This document shows, in pieces, positions 780-4,910 of a stretch of 13,542 nucleotides of DNA. The position numbers and the translations under genes were made by a program. How positions within the stretch are numbered: the first letter of the stretch is position 1; each line of letters starts with the position of its first letter. The DNA is from JALSIF01 sp026981635 [NCBI: bacterium] (GTDB taxonomy: Bacteria; 4484-113; JALSIF01). The notes beneath the pieces were generated by a model that saw nothing but the letters and a program-made list of their open reading frames with translations, did not search any database and was not told where the DNA came from. The stretch spans positions 1 through 13,542 of the forward strand of contig JALSIF010000225.1 of assembly GCA_026981635.1 (NCBI GenBank). Reading direction: 5' to 3'.

Positions 780-1949
780 ATGACACAACTGCCGCATAAG
801 ATCGCCATCGTGGGGGCGGGCACCATGGGTCGGGGAATCGCCCAGCTCGCCGCCCAGCACGGCTTTGAGGTTCTCCTCTACGACCAGAGTGCGGAGGCGC
901 TGAGGACCGCCCAGGGGGAGATAGAAAAGGGCTTTCAGTACCTGGTAAGCCGGGGAAAGCTTGAGCCCCAGGAGGCCAACGACGCCGCCCTGCGCATCCA
1001 CTACCTGAGCGAGTTTGACCAGCTGGGGGAGGGTGAGTTTGCCATTGAGGCGGTGGTGGAGGACCTGGAGGTCAAGACCCAGGTGTTTAGGGTGCTGGAA
1101 AAGATGCTTCACCCCCGCACCATCCTGGCCACCAACACCAGCTCCATCCCCATCACCGTCATCCAGTCGCGGGTGGATAACCCTGAGCGGGTGGTGGGGA
1201 TGCACTTCTTCAACCCGGCCCCGGTCATGAAGCTGGTGGAGGTGGTCAAGGGGATGTCCACCACCGAGCGGACGGTGATTGACACCATGGAGGTGGCCCG
1301 GGCGATGGGAAAGACGCCCATCCGGGTCAAGGACTCGCCCGCCTTCGTGGTCAACCGGGTGGCGCGAAACTTCTATGGCGAGGCGCTGAGGATCGTCAGC
1401 GAGCGGCTGGCCACGGTGGAGGAGGTGGACAGCGCCCTCCGAGGGGCTGGCTTCAAGATGGGCCCCTTTGAGCTGATGGACCTCATTGGGATAGACGTGA
1501 ACCTGGCGGTAAGCGAATCCACCTGGAAGGCCTTCTACATGGAGCCCCGCTTCCAGCCCCACCCCCTCCAGCGGCTGATGGTGGAGGCGGGCAGGCTGGG
1601 CAGAAAGACCGGCAAAGGCTTCTATGACTACTCCAACGGGCCCCAACGGGCCGAGGTGAAGGTGAGGTCCGACCTGGCCGAGCTTATCGTGGAGCGGATC
1701 GGGGTGATGGTGATTAACGAGGCGGCCTTCACCGTCTTTGAGGGGGTGGCCAGCCCCAGGGACATTGATACCGCCATGAAGCTGGGCACCAACTGGCCCA
1801 AGGGACCCTGCGAGTGGGCCAACGAGATGGGGATTGAAAACGTCCTTACCAGCCTGGAGAGGCTCTATGACCACTACCTGGAGCCCCGCTACCGGCCCTG
1901 CCCCCTGCTCAGGAAGATGGCCATGGACGGGGAGCGCTTCATGCTCTAG
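780..1949 (+). CDS. 3-hydroxyacyl-CoA dehydrogenase (NAD+), doubled C-terminal domain
   Basis: The enzyme oxidises L-3-hydroxyacyl-CoA to 3-ketoacyl-CoA with NAD+ (or the reverse with NAD(P)H), in fatty-acid beta-oxidation, butyrate-type metabolism or phenylacetate breakdown. The N-terminal Rossmann fold shows [11 protein letters not shown] (residues 11-21) with an acidic residue (D35) ending the second strand, as in NAD-specific members. Ser121, His142, Glu154 and Asn192 have exactly the spacing (21, 12, 38) of the Ser/His/Glu/Asn active site in human HADH. A first 3HCDH C-terminal domain covers about 185-285 (ending [11 protein letters not shown]) and a second covers about 298-385, giving 389 residues instead of the usual ~285. 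This layout recalls PaaH-like and Thermus-type enzymes. There is no enoyl-CoA hydratase fusion. ATG 780 follows GAGAAGG. No other beta-oxidation gene lies in the window, so the pathway cannot be assigned. Confidence 0.93.
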
Positions 1950-1981
1950 AAAAAAATCACCGGCGGATTTCCCGCCGGTGA
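1950..1981 (-). terminator. Intrinsic terminator, canonical on the minus strand
   Basis: On the minus strand TCACCGGCGG (1981-1972), a 5-base loop and CCGCCGGTGA (1966-1957) form a perfect 10-bp GC-rich stem. Seven T (1956-1950) follow immediately, the textbook Rho-independent form. On the plus strand the hairpin sits one base after the dehydrogenase stop with a run of A before it and no T-run after, so it is not a canonical terminator for that gene, though it could help end both transcripts. Confidence 0.75.
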
Positions 1982-2024
1982 GGAGGTGAAATTAAGATTA
2001 AGATTTTGGGAGGGACAAGCCCTC
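1950..2024 (-). ncRNA. Putative small regulatory RNA with anti-Shine-Dalgarno motif (~75 nt)
   Basis: No convincing coding frame lies between 1950 and 2090, yet the minus strand reads as a complete small transcription unit. It has a -35/-10 pair at 2060-2031, a predicted start near 2024, and a 5' stem-loop GAGGG-CUUGU-CCCUC (2024-2010). An A/U-rich linker repeating AAUCUU (about 2007-1990) follows, then an unpaired CACCUCCU (1988-1981), and finally the 10-bp GC hairpin plus U7. CACCUCCU is the conserved anti-Shine-Dalgarno core of the 16S rRNA 3' end, so the RNA could pair with ribosome binding sites such as GGAGGTG of yaaR or GGAGG of the gene at 3572. C-rich seeds targeting Shine-Dalgarno sites are known in Gram-positive small RNAs; the function here is inference. 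The exact 5' end is uncertain by a few bases. No known RNA family was recognised. Confidence 0.5.
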
Positions 2025-2030
2025 ATAAAA

Positions 2031-2060
2031 CTTATACCCCAGATTTCCCATTCCCGTCAA
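2031..2060 (-). promoter_or_regulatory. Sigma70-type promoter of the putative small RNA
   Basis: On the minus strand TTGACG (2060-2055, 5/6 to consensus) and TATAAG (2036-2031, 5/6) are separated by 18 bases. It is one of only two places in the window where both boxes are clearly visible at normal spacing. The -35 overlaps the region where a -35 for the oppositely oriented flavin-reductase promoter (-10 at 2079-2084) would lie, so the two could compete. Confidence 0.55.
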
Positions 2061-2090: not shown

Positions 2091-2723
2091 GTGGCCAAGG
2101 AAGGGATCAGCCGAATTGACCTAGGCGAAAAGGACCCCCGCACCGCCTATCACTGGCTTACCCGCACGGTCGCCCCCCGGCCCATCGCCTGGGTGAGCAC
2201 CAAGAGCCCGCGGGGCAAGCTGAACCTGGCTCCCTTCAGCTACTTCAACGCCGGGGGGGCAAACCCCCCCAGCCTGGTCTTCTCCTGCACCTACACCCGG
2301 GAGGGCAAGCCCAAAGACACCCTGCGAAACGTCAGAGAGACGGGGGAGTTTGTGGTCAATGTGGTCACCCGGGAGGTGGTGGAGGCGGCCAATCTAACCA
2401 GCCGGGCCTTTGAGTATGAGGTGAGCGAGTTTGAGGAGGTGGGGCTGACCCCGGCCTGGGACACCGCCCACGTGACCGTCCCCCGGGTGGCAGAAAGCCC
2501 CATCGCCTTTGAGTGCAGGGTGTTTGCCATCGTTGACCACGGCAATGGACCCCTAAGCGCCCACTATGTGATCGGGGAGGTGCTGGCGGTCCACTGCGAC
2601 GCCTCGCTGCTGGATGAGGAGGGGATGCCCGACCCGGCAAAGATAGAACACTGCGCCCGGCTGGGCAAGAGCTTCTACCTTCGGGTGAGGGAGGAGGAGC
2701 TGTTTGAGCTTCCCCGCCCCTAG
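2091..2723 (+). CDS. Flavin reductase-like domain protein (FMN-binding split-barrel)
   Basis: This 210-residue protein matches the DIM6/NTAB (flavin reductase-like) family. It shows APRPIAWVSTKSPRGKLNLAPFSYF-type strands at about residues 28-52 and a PPSLVFS strand at about 59-65. It also shows KDTLRNVRETGEFVVNVV (about 75-92), where family members bind the FMN phosphate and isoalloxazine. Relatives reduce FMN/FAD with NAD(P)H for a partner monooxygenase or simply hold FMN as redox proteins; no partner is encoded nearby. The GTG start is supported by the TAGAAT box six bases upstream, and an out-of-frame ATG at 2083 is not used. The gene converges on the 2730-3572 gene with only six bases between the two stops and no visible terminator. 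Confidence 0.88.
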   Translation: MAKEGISRIDLGEKDPRTAYHWLTRTVAPRPIAWVSTKSPRGKLNLAPFSYFNAGGANPPSLVFSCTYTREGKPKDTLRNVRETGEFVVNVVTREVVEAANLTSRAFEYEVSEFEEVGLTPAWDTAHVTVPRVAESPIAFECRVFAIVDHGNGPLSAHYVIGEVLAVHCDASLLDEEGMPDPAKIEHCARLGKSFYLRVREEELFELPRP

Positions 2724-2729
2724 GCCGGG

Positions 2730-3572
2730 TCAGGAGCCGCCGCCTACCGCCTGGCCTAGCTCGTCAATGTGGTCCTGCTCCTCCTCGTCGGGCCCGTCCC
2801 TATCTAGGGGAGGCTCCTTGGCGGAGGCGGCCTTCCCACCCGCCTGGTTCTCGTCCACCGGCTTGTAGCTGTCTGACCAGGTGGCCCAGTCACCCTCAAA
2901 GAAGCCCCGCTTGAGGCGGTAGAGGGCGAGGGCCTCGTAGCGCTTGATCAGGCCGATGGGAGCGCGGCGGGGCTCCACCGAGCGCTCGCCGGTCTTCAGG
3001 TCCAGGAAGTACTGGGCGATGCGCATGCGGCGCTTGGCCCCCTGGGGGCCGGAGCCCGGCTCGCCGATGTAGCGGTAGATGACGATCTTGCGGTAGACGT
3101 GGCCGTCCATGCCGAAGAAGAAGAAGGGGTCCACGTACTCGCAGCGGGCGGCGTTGTCAATGATCTCCGAGCCCTCGGTGTAGCAGCCGAAGGCACGGTA
3201 GAAGCCCTCGCGGGTCCTGTCACCGAACTTGATCTCGCTTCTGAGGTAGGCCACCGGCGCCTTCCACCAGACGTTGTTGTAGGGGTCGTAGATGACGGTC
3301 TGGCCGTCGGGGCCGCTTCCCGTCCAGTAGCGGAAGAACTGGTCCTGGTAGATGCCCCTGACGGTTACCTGGGTGTTGGAGAAGGCACCGCCCTTGCCTT
3401 GGACTGCACCGGTCACCACAAAGGGGCTGACCCGAGTGAAGTTGCGCAAGACCTCAACCTGGTCAAAGATGGTGGGCTTATTGTTGGGCTGCTGGGCACC
3501 TGCCATGCCGGCAGAAAGGAGAAGCAGGCCAGCCAGGACTGTCAGGATGAGAAGCTTATAAGACCGTCCCAT
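2730..3572 (-). CDS. Unknown exported protein with acidic C-terminal tail
   Basis: I do not recognise a family. The 280-residue product opens with a clear signal peptide: basic MGRSYK, a hydrophobic core at residues 7-20 and an AGA-QQ cleavage site after about residue 26. The mature part is rich in aromatic residues and beta-strand patterns. It has only two cysteines (130 and 144), which could form a disulfide after export, an FFFF run at 150-153, and a positively charged stretch at about 180-222. A low-complexity acidic tail (RDGPDEEEQDHIDE) lies near the C-terminus. The frame stays open upstream to 3794, but ATG 3572 is preferred. It begins the signal peptide, has GGAGG seven bases upstream, and lies downstream of a TAGAAT box, whereas the longer form would run into the divergent gene. 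Export suggests a surface, cell-wall or periplasmic role. Confidence 0.8.
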   Translation of the reverse strand: MGRSYKLLILTVLAGLLLLSAGMAGAQQPNNKPTIFDQVEVLRNFTRVSPFVVTGAVQGKGGAFSNTQVTVRGIYQDQFFRYWTGSGPDGQTVIYDPYNNVWWKAPVAYLRSEIKFGDRTREGFYRAFGCYTEGSEIIDNAARCEYVDPFFFFGMDGHVYRKIVIYRYIGEPGSGPQGAKRRMRIAQYFLDLKTGERSVEPRRAPIGLIKRYEALALYRLKRGFFEGDWATWSDSYKPVDENQAGGKAASAKEPPLDRDGPDEEEQDHIDELGQAVGGGS

Positions 3573-3579
3573 AGCGAAA

Positions 3580-3584
3580 CCTCC
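3580..3584 (-). promoter_or_regulatory. Shine-Dalgarno GGAGG deciding the start at 3572
   Basis: GGAGG (3584-3580) lies seven bases before ATG 3572 on the minus strand. This strong ribosome binding site fixes the start at the signal-peptide methionine and rejects the longer open frame to 3794. Confidence 0.75.
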
Positions 3585-3612
3585 AGGAGAGGAAACTCGC
3601 CTCTCAGGTCTC

Positions 3613-3618
3613 ATTCTA
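3613..3618 (-). promoter_or_regulatory. -10 element TAGAAT of the minus-strand exported-protein gene
   Basis: TAGAAT (3618-3613) lies 40 bases before ATG 3572, giving a leader of about 33 bases that carries the GGAGG site. A weak TTGCCC (3639-3634) is 15 bases upstream. It is the same hexamer as at the leaderless genes but placed for a conventional leader. Confidence 0.5.
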
Positions 3619-3632
3619 CCCAGCAAAGCGGC

Positions 3633-3645
3633 GGGGCAACGCCCC
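3633..3645. repeat. Inverted repeat between divergent promoters
   Basis: GGGGC-AAC-GCCCC is a perfect 5-bp inverted repeat lying between the two divergent TAGAAT boxes (3613-3618 and 3651-3656), over the position of both putative -35 regions. It could be a regulator operator or chance in GC-rich DNA. Confidence 0.25.
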
Positions 3646-3647
3646 AC

Positions 3648-3656
3648 TGATAGAAT
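3648..3656 (+). promoter_or_regulatory. Extended -10 TGATAGAAT, leaderless promoter of the 3663-6390 operon
   Basis: TAGAAT (3651-3656) carries a TGn extension and is followed by exactly six bases (TCGCCT) and GTG 3663, matching the arrangement at 2079-2091. There is no Shine-Dalgarno sequence. The extension may compensate for the lack of a visible -35. Confidence 0.6.
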
Positions 3657-3662
3657 TCGCCT

Positions 3663-4910
3663 GTGGACCTGACAAGGCTCCCCCAGCCTCTGGCGGCACT
3701 TCTTGTCGCACTCTCGCTTCTCCCCGCTCCCCTGGCAGCTCTCGCCGCAGGGCCCCTCTACTTTGAGTTTGCCCTGGTGGAGGATTTTGAGCAAGGGGGA
3801 GAGAGCCTCTTCTTTGAGGGGCAGAAGGGGGAGCGGGTCTTTATGGTTACCGCCGGACGCTACCAGCTTGATGCCGGCCGCTCGGTGATCTCCGCCAGCA
3901 GCACCATTCCGGTCATTGATCCTGCCGCCCGCCTCAGCACCACCCTGGAGCTCATCTCTCCCCGGGAGAGCGACTCACCGCCCCTCTATGGGCTGATCCT
4001 TGAGCGGGCAAGGGAGGAGGAAGGGGTCTCCCTGGTGGGGTGCGGGATCAGCGGGGGAAGGGCGGTGGTCTTTGAGCTTGACGGGCCGGGGGAGAGGCCG
4101 GAGATGGTGGCCGAGGGAGCGGAGGTTAAGGAGCCCTACGGACCAGTCCGGCTTACCCTGGCCTACTTCCCCGACCGCCTGCTCTGCTACGTGGACGGGG
4201 AGCTTGCGGTGAGGGCACCCCTTCCCCCCTACCGGCCCAAGGGAGTGGGGATGTTTGTGGCCGGGGGAGGGGTGCTGGCGGCAGACGACCTGGTTTTACA
4301 GAAGCCGGTCTTTCGGGCCATGGACCTCACGACCGACTTCAGCGATCTCAGGGAGGAGGCCAAACGGTGGTTTGTGGGCAGGGCGGGAAATGCAGTCTAC
4401 GCCCTCAGGGAGGAGGGCTATGTGATCAACACCATGTCGGCCCGCCGCCCGGCGGTGGCCATGCCTGAGGGGGGAGCGGCGGACCTCTCCCTCTCGGCCT
4501 CCCTGAGGTACCTTGACGGCGACCCCTCGGTGGGCTTCGGGCTCTTCATCCGCGCCCGCTCCGACCGGCAGGGGAGGATGAGCTACCTCAGGGTGCTAAT
4601 AAACGACCTCAGCGGGGTGGTGGTCCAGCTCCACACCCCCAAGGGGGAGAAGAACCTCTGGGGGTGGGAGATAAGCAAGCTCTACCGGGAGGGGGAGGAG
4701 AACCGGCTCCGAGTGGAGGTGTTTGGCAGGAACCTCTATGTGAGCCTGAACGGCCAGCGGGTGGCCGCCCTCAGTCTGCCGGAGGACCTTACCATCCAGC
4801 CGGGCCGCTTCGGCATCATCGTCTTTCCGGGGACCAAGGTGGCCGTCTCCCACTTTGCCGTCCAGGTCCACGACCCGGCCATCCTGCCCAGCGGAGGTGG
4901 TGAGCCTTGA
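3663..4910 (+). CDS. Exported protein with two LamG/concanavalin-like beta-sandwich domains (putative)
   Basis: The 415-residue product has an N-terminal signal peptide with a hydrophobic stretch at about residues 8-28 and possible Ala-rich cleavage near 28-29. Two similar halves follow, at about 32-215 and 216-405. Each ends with the pattern of a lectin-like jelly roll such as LamG or DUF1080: a strand with RLTLAYF or RLRVEVF, then a strand with LLCYVDGE or LYVSLNGQ, then GVGMFV or RFGIIVF, and a final strand (ADDLVLQ or VSHFAVQV). Such folds bind carbohydrate or other surface ligands; I see no catalytic signature. The call is fold-level inference. The GTG start is set by the TAGAAT box six bases upstream. 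The stop overlaps the TTG start of yaaR by four bases, so an exported protein is translationally linked to cytosolic replication-associated genes, which is unusual. Confidence 0.75.
   Translation: MDLTRLPQPLAALLVALSLLPAPLAALAAGPLYFEFALVEDFEQGGESLFFEGQKGERVFMVTAGRYQLDAGRSVISASSTIPVIDPAARLSTTLELISPRESDSPPLYGLILERAREEEGVSLVGCGISGGRAVVFELDGPGERPEMVAEGAEVKEPYGPVRLTLAYFPDRLLCYVDGELAVRAPLPPYRPKGVGMFVAGGGVLAADDLVLQKPVFRAMDLTTDFSDLREEAKRWFVGRAGNAVYALREEGYVINTMSARRPAVAMPEGGAADLSLSASLRYLDGDPSVGFGLFIRARSDRQGRMSYLRVLINDLSGVVVQLHTPKGEKNLWGWEISKLYREGEENRLRVEVFGRNLYVSLNGQRVAALSLPEDLTIQPGRFGIIVFPGTKVAVSHFAVQVHDPAILPSGGGEP
4893..4899 (+). promoter_or_regulatory. Shine-Dalgarno GGAGGTG selecting the TTG start of yaaR
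   Basis: GGAGGTG ends seven bases before TTG 4907. This strong site inside the end of the upstream gene supports the rare TTG start and the 4-base overlap (TTGA). It is perfectly complementary to the CACCUCC stretch of the putative small RNA at 1950-2024. Confidence 0.7.

Follow-up and report, generated by a model that had tools for sequence, protein, structure and literature searches.

The DNA between two convergently and divergently placed neighbours of a putative minus-strand transcript raises the question of whether it encodes a small RNA of its own and, if so, what an RNA exposing a copy of the ribosome's anti-Shine-Dalgarno (anti-SD) core would do. The locus lies in a 13 542-nt stretch of a contig of JALSIF01 sp026981635 (hereafter the window, whose numbering is used throughout), where it forms an AT-rich stretch between GC-rich genes, with a GC content of 0.38 at 1990-2050 against 0.63 and 0.65 in the flanking genes. 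On one side is a 3-hydroxyacyl-CoA dehydrogenase gene (780-1949, plus strand; Pfam PF02737, PF00725), convergent with the unit, and on the other a flavin reductase-like gene (2091-2723, plus strand; Pfam PF01613), divergent from it and leaderless-looking, with TAGAAT at 2079-2084, a gap of 6 and GTG at 2091.

Read in order, the minus strand presents TTGACG, 18 nt, TATAAG, a predicted +1, a 5' hairpin, a linker, CACCTCCT, a terminator hairpin and T7, and direct reading confirms the unit as the preliminary description had drawn it, up to the T-run beside the dehydrogenase stop codon. The promoter (2031-2060, minus) is of the sigma70 type, with TTGACG at 2060-2055 and TATAAG at 2036-2031, and matches TTGACA/TATAAT at 10 of 12 positions. 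Transcription is predicted to start at 2024, six bases beyond the -10, and to yield an RNA of 75 nt (1950-2024, minus, from sequence and fold), whose first base is also the first base of the 5' hairpin GAGGG-CUUGU-CCCUC (2010-2024). The linker (1982-2009), which holds AAUCUU repeats and the anti-SD stretch, is unpaired in both the minimum-energy and the centroid structures, and CACCTCCT occupies 1981-1988. An intrinsic terminator (1950-1981), recognized in scans and in the fold, consists of a perfect 10-bp hairpin and T7; the scans give its stem 11 pairs and a loop of 3. By direct reading the hairpin runs from 1981 to 1957 and the T7 from 1956 to 1950, abutting the plus-strand stop codon TAG at 1947-1949, and the last U of CACCUCCU doubles as the first base of the terminator stem. 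The fold of 1950-2026 contains both hairpins at -27.6 kcal/mol (z -4.65), and none of 200 shuffles folded as well. A minus-strand ORF from the ATG at 2026 (26 codons, running through the terminator) was rejected as a product of this unit, since its ATG is only 4 nt past the -10 and leaderless starts here lie at 6-9 nt. On the plus strand (1947-2081), the dehydrogenase frame stays open beyond its TAG as far as the TAG at 2079-2081. Within 2031-2091, the promoter of the RNA points away from that of the flavin reductase gene (TAGAAT, 2079-2084, plus) and the two overlap around their -35 regions, so that a single regulator could act on both.

The promoter belongs to a class that is real in this genome. 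The sample comprised 121 contigs, or 867 kb including 56 kb of N, of a 1.75-Mb assembly (317 contigs, 85% complete), in which a simple script based on codon usage called 778 genes with only approximate start codons. In half of the genome, sigma70-like sites scoring at least 10/12 numbered 31 in intergenic DNA against 8 in reversed sequence, and their density between genes was 48 times that inside genes; some of them, in our own reading of the sequence by eye, precede gene starts or apparent tRNA or 5S genes. A 10-of-12 promoter within 160 nt upstream was found for 2.4% of N-free random intergenic points. A promoter scan demanding T as the sixth -10 base misses TATAAG.

Strict intrinsic terminators numbered 16 in the 867 kb, 12 of them intergenic, against 6 in the reversed control, and the score of the one in the window (17.1) exceeds the best of those 6 control matches (14.8). 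CACCTCCT alone is not rare, with 6 copies in the window against a shuffle mean of 1.0, and it is the combination of parts, rather than this stretch by itself, that exceeds chance. In the 40 nt leading up to the stem, CCTCCT is present at 4 of the 12 intergenic terminators (background 3.9%, P = 0.0009), and at 3 of 11 when the window is left out (P = 0.0075). Plain CCTCC likewise precedes the stem at 4 of these 12, its background being 12.6% (P = 0.054), and exact CACCTCCT before a terminator was seen, with the window left out, in 1 of 11 (P = 0.06).

The C-rich stretch had been equated with the core of the 16S anti-SD. Scoring 26 of 46 first-look candidates yielded no 16S gene in this assembly; GGATCACCTCCTTTT stands at the 16S tail of two genomes of the same class, which makes it very probable that CACCUCCU, in a linker that the fold leaves unpaired, equals the anti-SD core of this bacterium, as had been proposed. 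Both kinds of translation start are visible in the genome. Among 682 genes, starts are preceded at 5-12 nt by an excess of SD-like 5-mers and at 6-9 nt by an excess of TANNNT, a mark of leaderless genes, with 139 counts at those four gaps against roughly 7 per position elsewhere. Leaderless-like starts were assigned to 136 of the 682 genes and, within the window, to 4 of 14 tested genes, the flavin reductase gene among them, in keeping with the earlier remark that such starts are common.

The linker pairs on average at -16.1 kcal/mol with SD-like starts (157 genes), -9.4 with leaderless-like starts (136), -11.4 with the others (389) and -10.7 with internal controls, the difference between SD-like and leaderless starts being partly built in because the former are complementary by definition. 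Over all 682 starts the specificity is modest, with a mean duplex energy of -12.1 kcal/mol for the linker against -11.7 for the reversed linker, and with 346 starts reaching -12 kcal/mol against 316 for the reversed linker and 239 of 682 internal controls. AGGAGGTG lies within the 33 bases that end with the start codon in 11 of 682 genes. The target prediction suggested in the preliminary description shows better pairing of the linker with SD-like starts, and no single target stands out because the linker fits many strong SDs. Repression of SD-led mRNAs would call for just such a preference for SD-like starts. A gene for Hfq was not found in the 85% complete genome.

The case for a complete minus-strand RNA gene is strengthened by a like unit on contig C4. 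The pattern CACCTCCTN{10,40}TTTTT, searched across the whole genome, gave 8 overlapping matches at 5 places, without enrichment over the backwards control (7 matches); by eye, a terminator hairpin is present at 2 of the 5 places, namely the window and C4 (5796-5760, minus). The neighbours of the C4 unit are a minus-strand gene without a Pfam family and a plus-strand gene that is thioredoxin reductase-like by Pfam. Its presumed promoter, TTGGGC-17-TATGCT, is weak and scores 7/12, the best site there scoring 8/12, and a promoter of at least 8/12 accompanies 24% of N-free random intergenic points. A hairpin, GCCGGG...CCCGGC, begins six bases past TATGCT and is followed by a second hairpin, unpaired CACCACCUCCUUUCG and the terminator, with CACCACCUCCU contained in the unpaired linker; the RNA predicted from C4 spans 5846-5760, or 87 nt. 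The stems of the window and C4 RNAs differ in sequence and both pair. The two units have little common sequence beyond CACCTCCT and an 11-nt spacer element, so their common descent is not demonstrated. Because the search that led to C4 used CACCTCCT and a T-run, independent support comes only from the C4 5' hairpin and from the 11-mer. The C4 terminator could also belong to the minus-strand gene whose end lies 97 nt ahead of the terminator stem.

A third candidate, of 79 nt on contig C20 (L151; 5939-6017, plus), has the same layout: it begins with a 5' hairpin and ends with a terminator, and the CU-rich linker between them is unpaired and contains UUCCUCCUU. Its best promoter score is 8/12 and its terminator lies 135 nt past one gene and 37 nt before another; given the weak promoter and this position, a leader or a 3' UTR is an alternative reading of the unit. 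On C279 (L287, G000:C279; 1291-1458), two intrinsic terminators follow one gene in a row, and before the second a hairpin, GCACUC...GAGUGC, carries CUCCUUCCCCCA (CTCCTTCCCCCA) in its loop. The looser pattern CCTCCN{14,44}TTTTT gave 119 matches in this genome against 123 in the control; among the matches listed, which extend to C281 (C282-C317 being covered by the terminator scan instead), the places with a terminator hairpin by eye are C4, C20, C225, C279, C123 and C33. At C123 the hairpin sits directly on CCTCC, and C33 is in coding-like sequence. A candidate unit at L289 was discarded as low-complexity DNA beside and inside a called gene. Another locus, L284 (G000:C276; 770-933), is small-RNA-like, with TTGACA-18-TAACCT, a hairpin and a terminator, and lacks an anti-SD stretch. 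The genome carries at least two units of the layout described for the window, perhaps three, and the C4 and C20 units may be read from their sequences as sibling small RNAs blocking SD-led translation.

The 11-nt spacer element, GGGAAATCTGG (2039-2049, minus), recurs on sequence comparison just before the presumed -10 of the C4 unit: it lies two bases ahead of TATAAG in the window and immediately ahead of TATGCT at C4. Among 60 000 random intergenic pairs, 201 have an 11-mer in common within 20 nt of register, and 608 have one anywhere in 130 nt. The genome contains 6 exact copies of GGGAAATCTGG, and 47 places match with at most one mismatch (a count that takes in the exact copies), the backwards control giving 13. 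A role as a regulator site throughout the genome was rejected; the four other exact copies (C3, C284, C308 and C54) occur without the unit; those on C3 and C284 are in called genes, that on C308 is in an uncalled stretch and that on C54 looks coding by eye. In half of the genome and with N excluded, GGGAAATC stands between called genes 10 times where 1.9 would be expected, a roughly fivefold excess spread over varied contexts, and AATCTGG 19 times where 6.7 would be expected; most of the listed copies of either have, by eye, no small-RNA-like unit behind them.

An RNA is probably made from this locus, as judged from its sequence. As to the whole explanation, namely that the locus is a free-standing gene, one of at least two such units, for an anti-SD small RNA that represses SD-led mRNAs, we lean towards it with some reserve. 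The sigma70-type promoter would drive the free-standing gene at 2060-1950 (minus) to give the 75-nt RNA, whose 5' hairpin and terminator hairpin would protect its ends and hold the linker single-stranded. CACCUCCU in the linker would then pair with AGGAGGUG-like Shine-Dalgarno sequences and exclude ribosomes, leading to repression of a set of SD-led mRNAs, and shared control of transcription is suggested by GGGAAATCTGG, which two units carry ahead of the -10. That the RNA is made, pairs in the cell, represses and is controlled jointly with its sibling are all steps that we infer. Since leaderless starts are common here, the RNA could possibly sort SD-led from leaderless transcripts, and the mixture of both kinds of start in one genome makes it a clean place to ask whether such an RNA acts on one class only. 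A bolder version, in which two or more sibling anti-SD RNAs share a regulator and target the whole SD-led class, their induction thereby tilting translation in favour of leaderless genes, is speculative and in our judgement quite unlikely. Among the papers listed on anti-SD small RNAs together with leaderless mRNAs, no title or abstract opening put forward a sorting of SD-led from leaderless transcripts.

The arrangement of the neighbouring genes invites a different interpretation. The terminators lie just past the stop codons of convergent oxidoreductase genes, by 7 nt in the window and by 21 nt at C4, and the RNA would be fully complementary to the 3' UTR if the convergent mRNAs run on. It might then be a cis-antisense RNA to the 3' end of the dehydrogenase mRNA (and of the thioredoxin reductase-like mRNA at C4) that affects stability or termination, with the anti-SD match incidental. 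Pairing with two unrelated mRNAs would not, however, need the identical 8-base CACCTCCT in both units, although C4 was located through that very stretch, and we regard an antisense role as rather unlikely. The same bases can also be read on the plus strand, as an A-run and a hairpin capping the dehydrogenase mRNA, followed by AGGAGGTGA as the ribosome binding site of a short ORF, the minus-strand promoter being a product of chance. AGGAGGTGA is a perfect Shine-Dalgarno sequence; at C4, too, AGGAGGTG follows the hairpin on that strand, and in two same-class genomes a hairpin past a stop codon precedes a conserved GGGGAGATAAGTGGATG that resembles a start region. Yet no ATG, GTG or TTG is found at a workable distance past AGGAGGTGA in the window, the T-run is on the minus-strand side only, and promoters like the one dismissed as chance are strongly concentrated between genes, so that a plus-strand element appears quite unlikely.

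Whether the terminator needs a small RNA at all must also be considered, since it might terminate antisense noise or long transcripts from a minus-strand gene (2730-3794). Between the end of this gene, at 2730, and the terminator the strict scan gives no other terminator, and antisense transcription into the hairpin is possible. Such transcripts would nevertheless have to extend about 750 nt beyond the gene, mostly antisense to the flavin reductase gene, whereas the other nine of the ten best terminators in the 867 kb lie 12-135 nt (in one case 204 nt) past a same-strand gene, and only that of the window has its nearest upstream gene on the opposite strand. A 10-of-12 promoter directly ahead of the hairpin argues further against read-through, which we consider improbable.

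The preliminary description knew of no described family with this layout, a claim that has to be withdrawn because the csRNAs of Streptococcus and the cyanobacterial Yfr1 are both described with two stem-loops and an unpaired motif. The csRNAs belong to the CiaRH regulon and are encoded by two to six intergenic genes per genome, each with its own promoter and giving RNAs of 51-202 nt, many of which have two stem-loops, an unpaired region complementary to Shine-Dalgarno and AUG, and a terminator (PMC3091779). Their promoters are of the CiaR type, with TTTAAG-N5-TTTAAG before the -10, and the unpaired region holds an anti-start codon, CAU in 53 of 61 and otherwise anti-GUG or anti-UUG (PMC3091779). 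The window RNA likewise has two stem-loops parted by an unpaired region with an anti-SD. Unlike the csRNAs, it comes from different bacteria and shows, by eye, no TTTAAG in the 60 nt upstream of its +1. As to the anti-start codon, its linker holds no CAU; CAC (anti-GUG) is present, inside the anti-SD stretch only. Yfr1, of 54-69 nt, has a 5' hairpin with a stem of 6-10 bp, an unpaired centre of 16-20 nt with the undecanucleotide ACUCCUCACAC, and a terminator hairpin with a U-tail (PMC2190773). The window RNA matches this succession of 5' stem-loop, unpaired C/U-rich centre and terminator hairpin with U-tail. Its linker of 28 nt is longer than that of Yfr1 and its 5' stem of 5 bp is one pair short of the range; the window RNA holds CUCCUCAC, a part of ACUCCUCACAC, without the full undecanucleotide, and the 3' half of CUCCUCAC is inside the terminator stem, whereas the Yfr1 motif is unpaired. 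By sequence, then, the window RNA is neither a csRNA nor Yfr1, having no CiaR repeats, full Yfr1 motif or Rfam match; by analogy, it would work like both if expressed.

SmelA075 and SmelA099 are the RNAs later called cuckoo RNAs. In these RNAs of Rhizobiales, the anti-SD motif CCUCCUCCC is displayed in three or four hairpin loops and is conserved while the stems diverge (PMC3927594). The window and C4 units similarly keep the anti-SD motif with diverging stems, but the motif of the window is in the linker and not in several hairpin loops. The NmsR RNAs of Neisseria are a sibling pair with UC-rich single-stranded stretches complementary to target SDs, three stem-loops, tandem genes and 70% identity (PMC5362039). 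Single-stranded stretches complementary to SDs are also a feature of the window and C4 units, which differ in lying on separate contigs with only short motifs in common. One agent known to affect the whole class of SD-led mRNAs in translation is MazF-mt11, which cuts off the 16S anti-SD (PMC12274833). This protein removes the ribosome's anti-SD, whereas the window RNA would mask the mRNA side and would, if the proposal is true, be the mRNA-side counterpart of such toxins. It would also add anti-SD RNAs of csRNA/Yfr1-like layout to a lineage where no Hfq gene was found, and such RNAs would have arisen more than once.

Searches for relatives returned the window itself. In 60 genomes (own included), the 156-base stretch matched only the window, all other matches having E >= 0.007 and being short, and no convincing homologue of the RNA unit was found among 9 same-class genomes. 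Orthologues of the flanking proteins in the class are distant; counting the own genome, 5 of 10 genomes have the flavin reductase and all 10 the dehydrogenase. Across the class, the pattern ACCTCCN{12,42}TTTTTT was matched 49 times and its backwards control 42 times, without overall enrichment; in the own genome the two counts were 6 and 0. At Rfam 15 gathering scores there were 0 matches in the window and none at the C4 unit (L135, L152). A covariance model built from three sequences (window, C4 and C20), with a hand-set structure fitting the window best, found only these three sources with confidence in the own and nine same-class genomes (150 of 213 first-look candidates scored in the own genome); the next match had an E of 0.1, and among 15 selected loci the next had 0.07.

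Several other elements came to light in the class. Two weak matches of the covariance model led to L348 (G007:C33) and L349 (G005:C26), where, close to the centre of each locus, a 27-nt AGCCAACCATCCACTTATCTCCCCAAC is identical in two genera; it adjoins a hairpin 3' of the stop codon of a related gene (polysaccharide export protein-like by eye) and on the opposite strand resembles a Shine-Dalgarno sequence plus ATG. A similar RNA-like element lies near a contig end at L213 (G001:C11; 119-199) and L222 (G005:C39; 88-186), both minus, with ACCTCCTGC before a terminator that has CCCACCTC in its loop; GAGGTGGG, upstream, could pair with that loop. At L221 (G003:C29 near 70198; 1352-1725), TRF delineates five tandem repeats of a 75-nt unit; every repeat contains a hairpin with CCTCCTGG at its start (in one repeat CCTTCTGG instead) and finishes in T-rich sequence.
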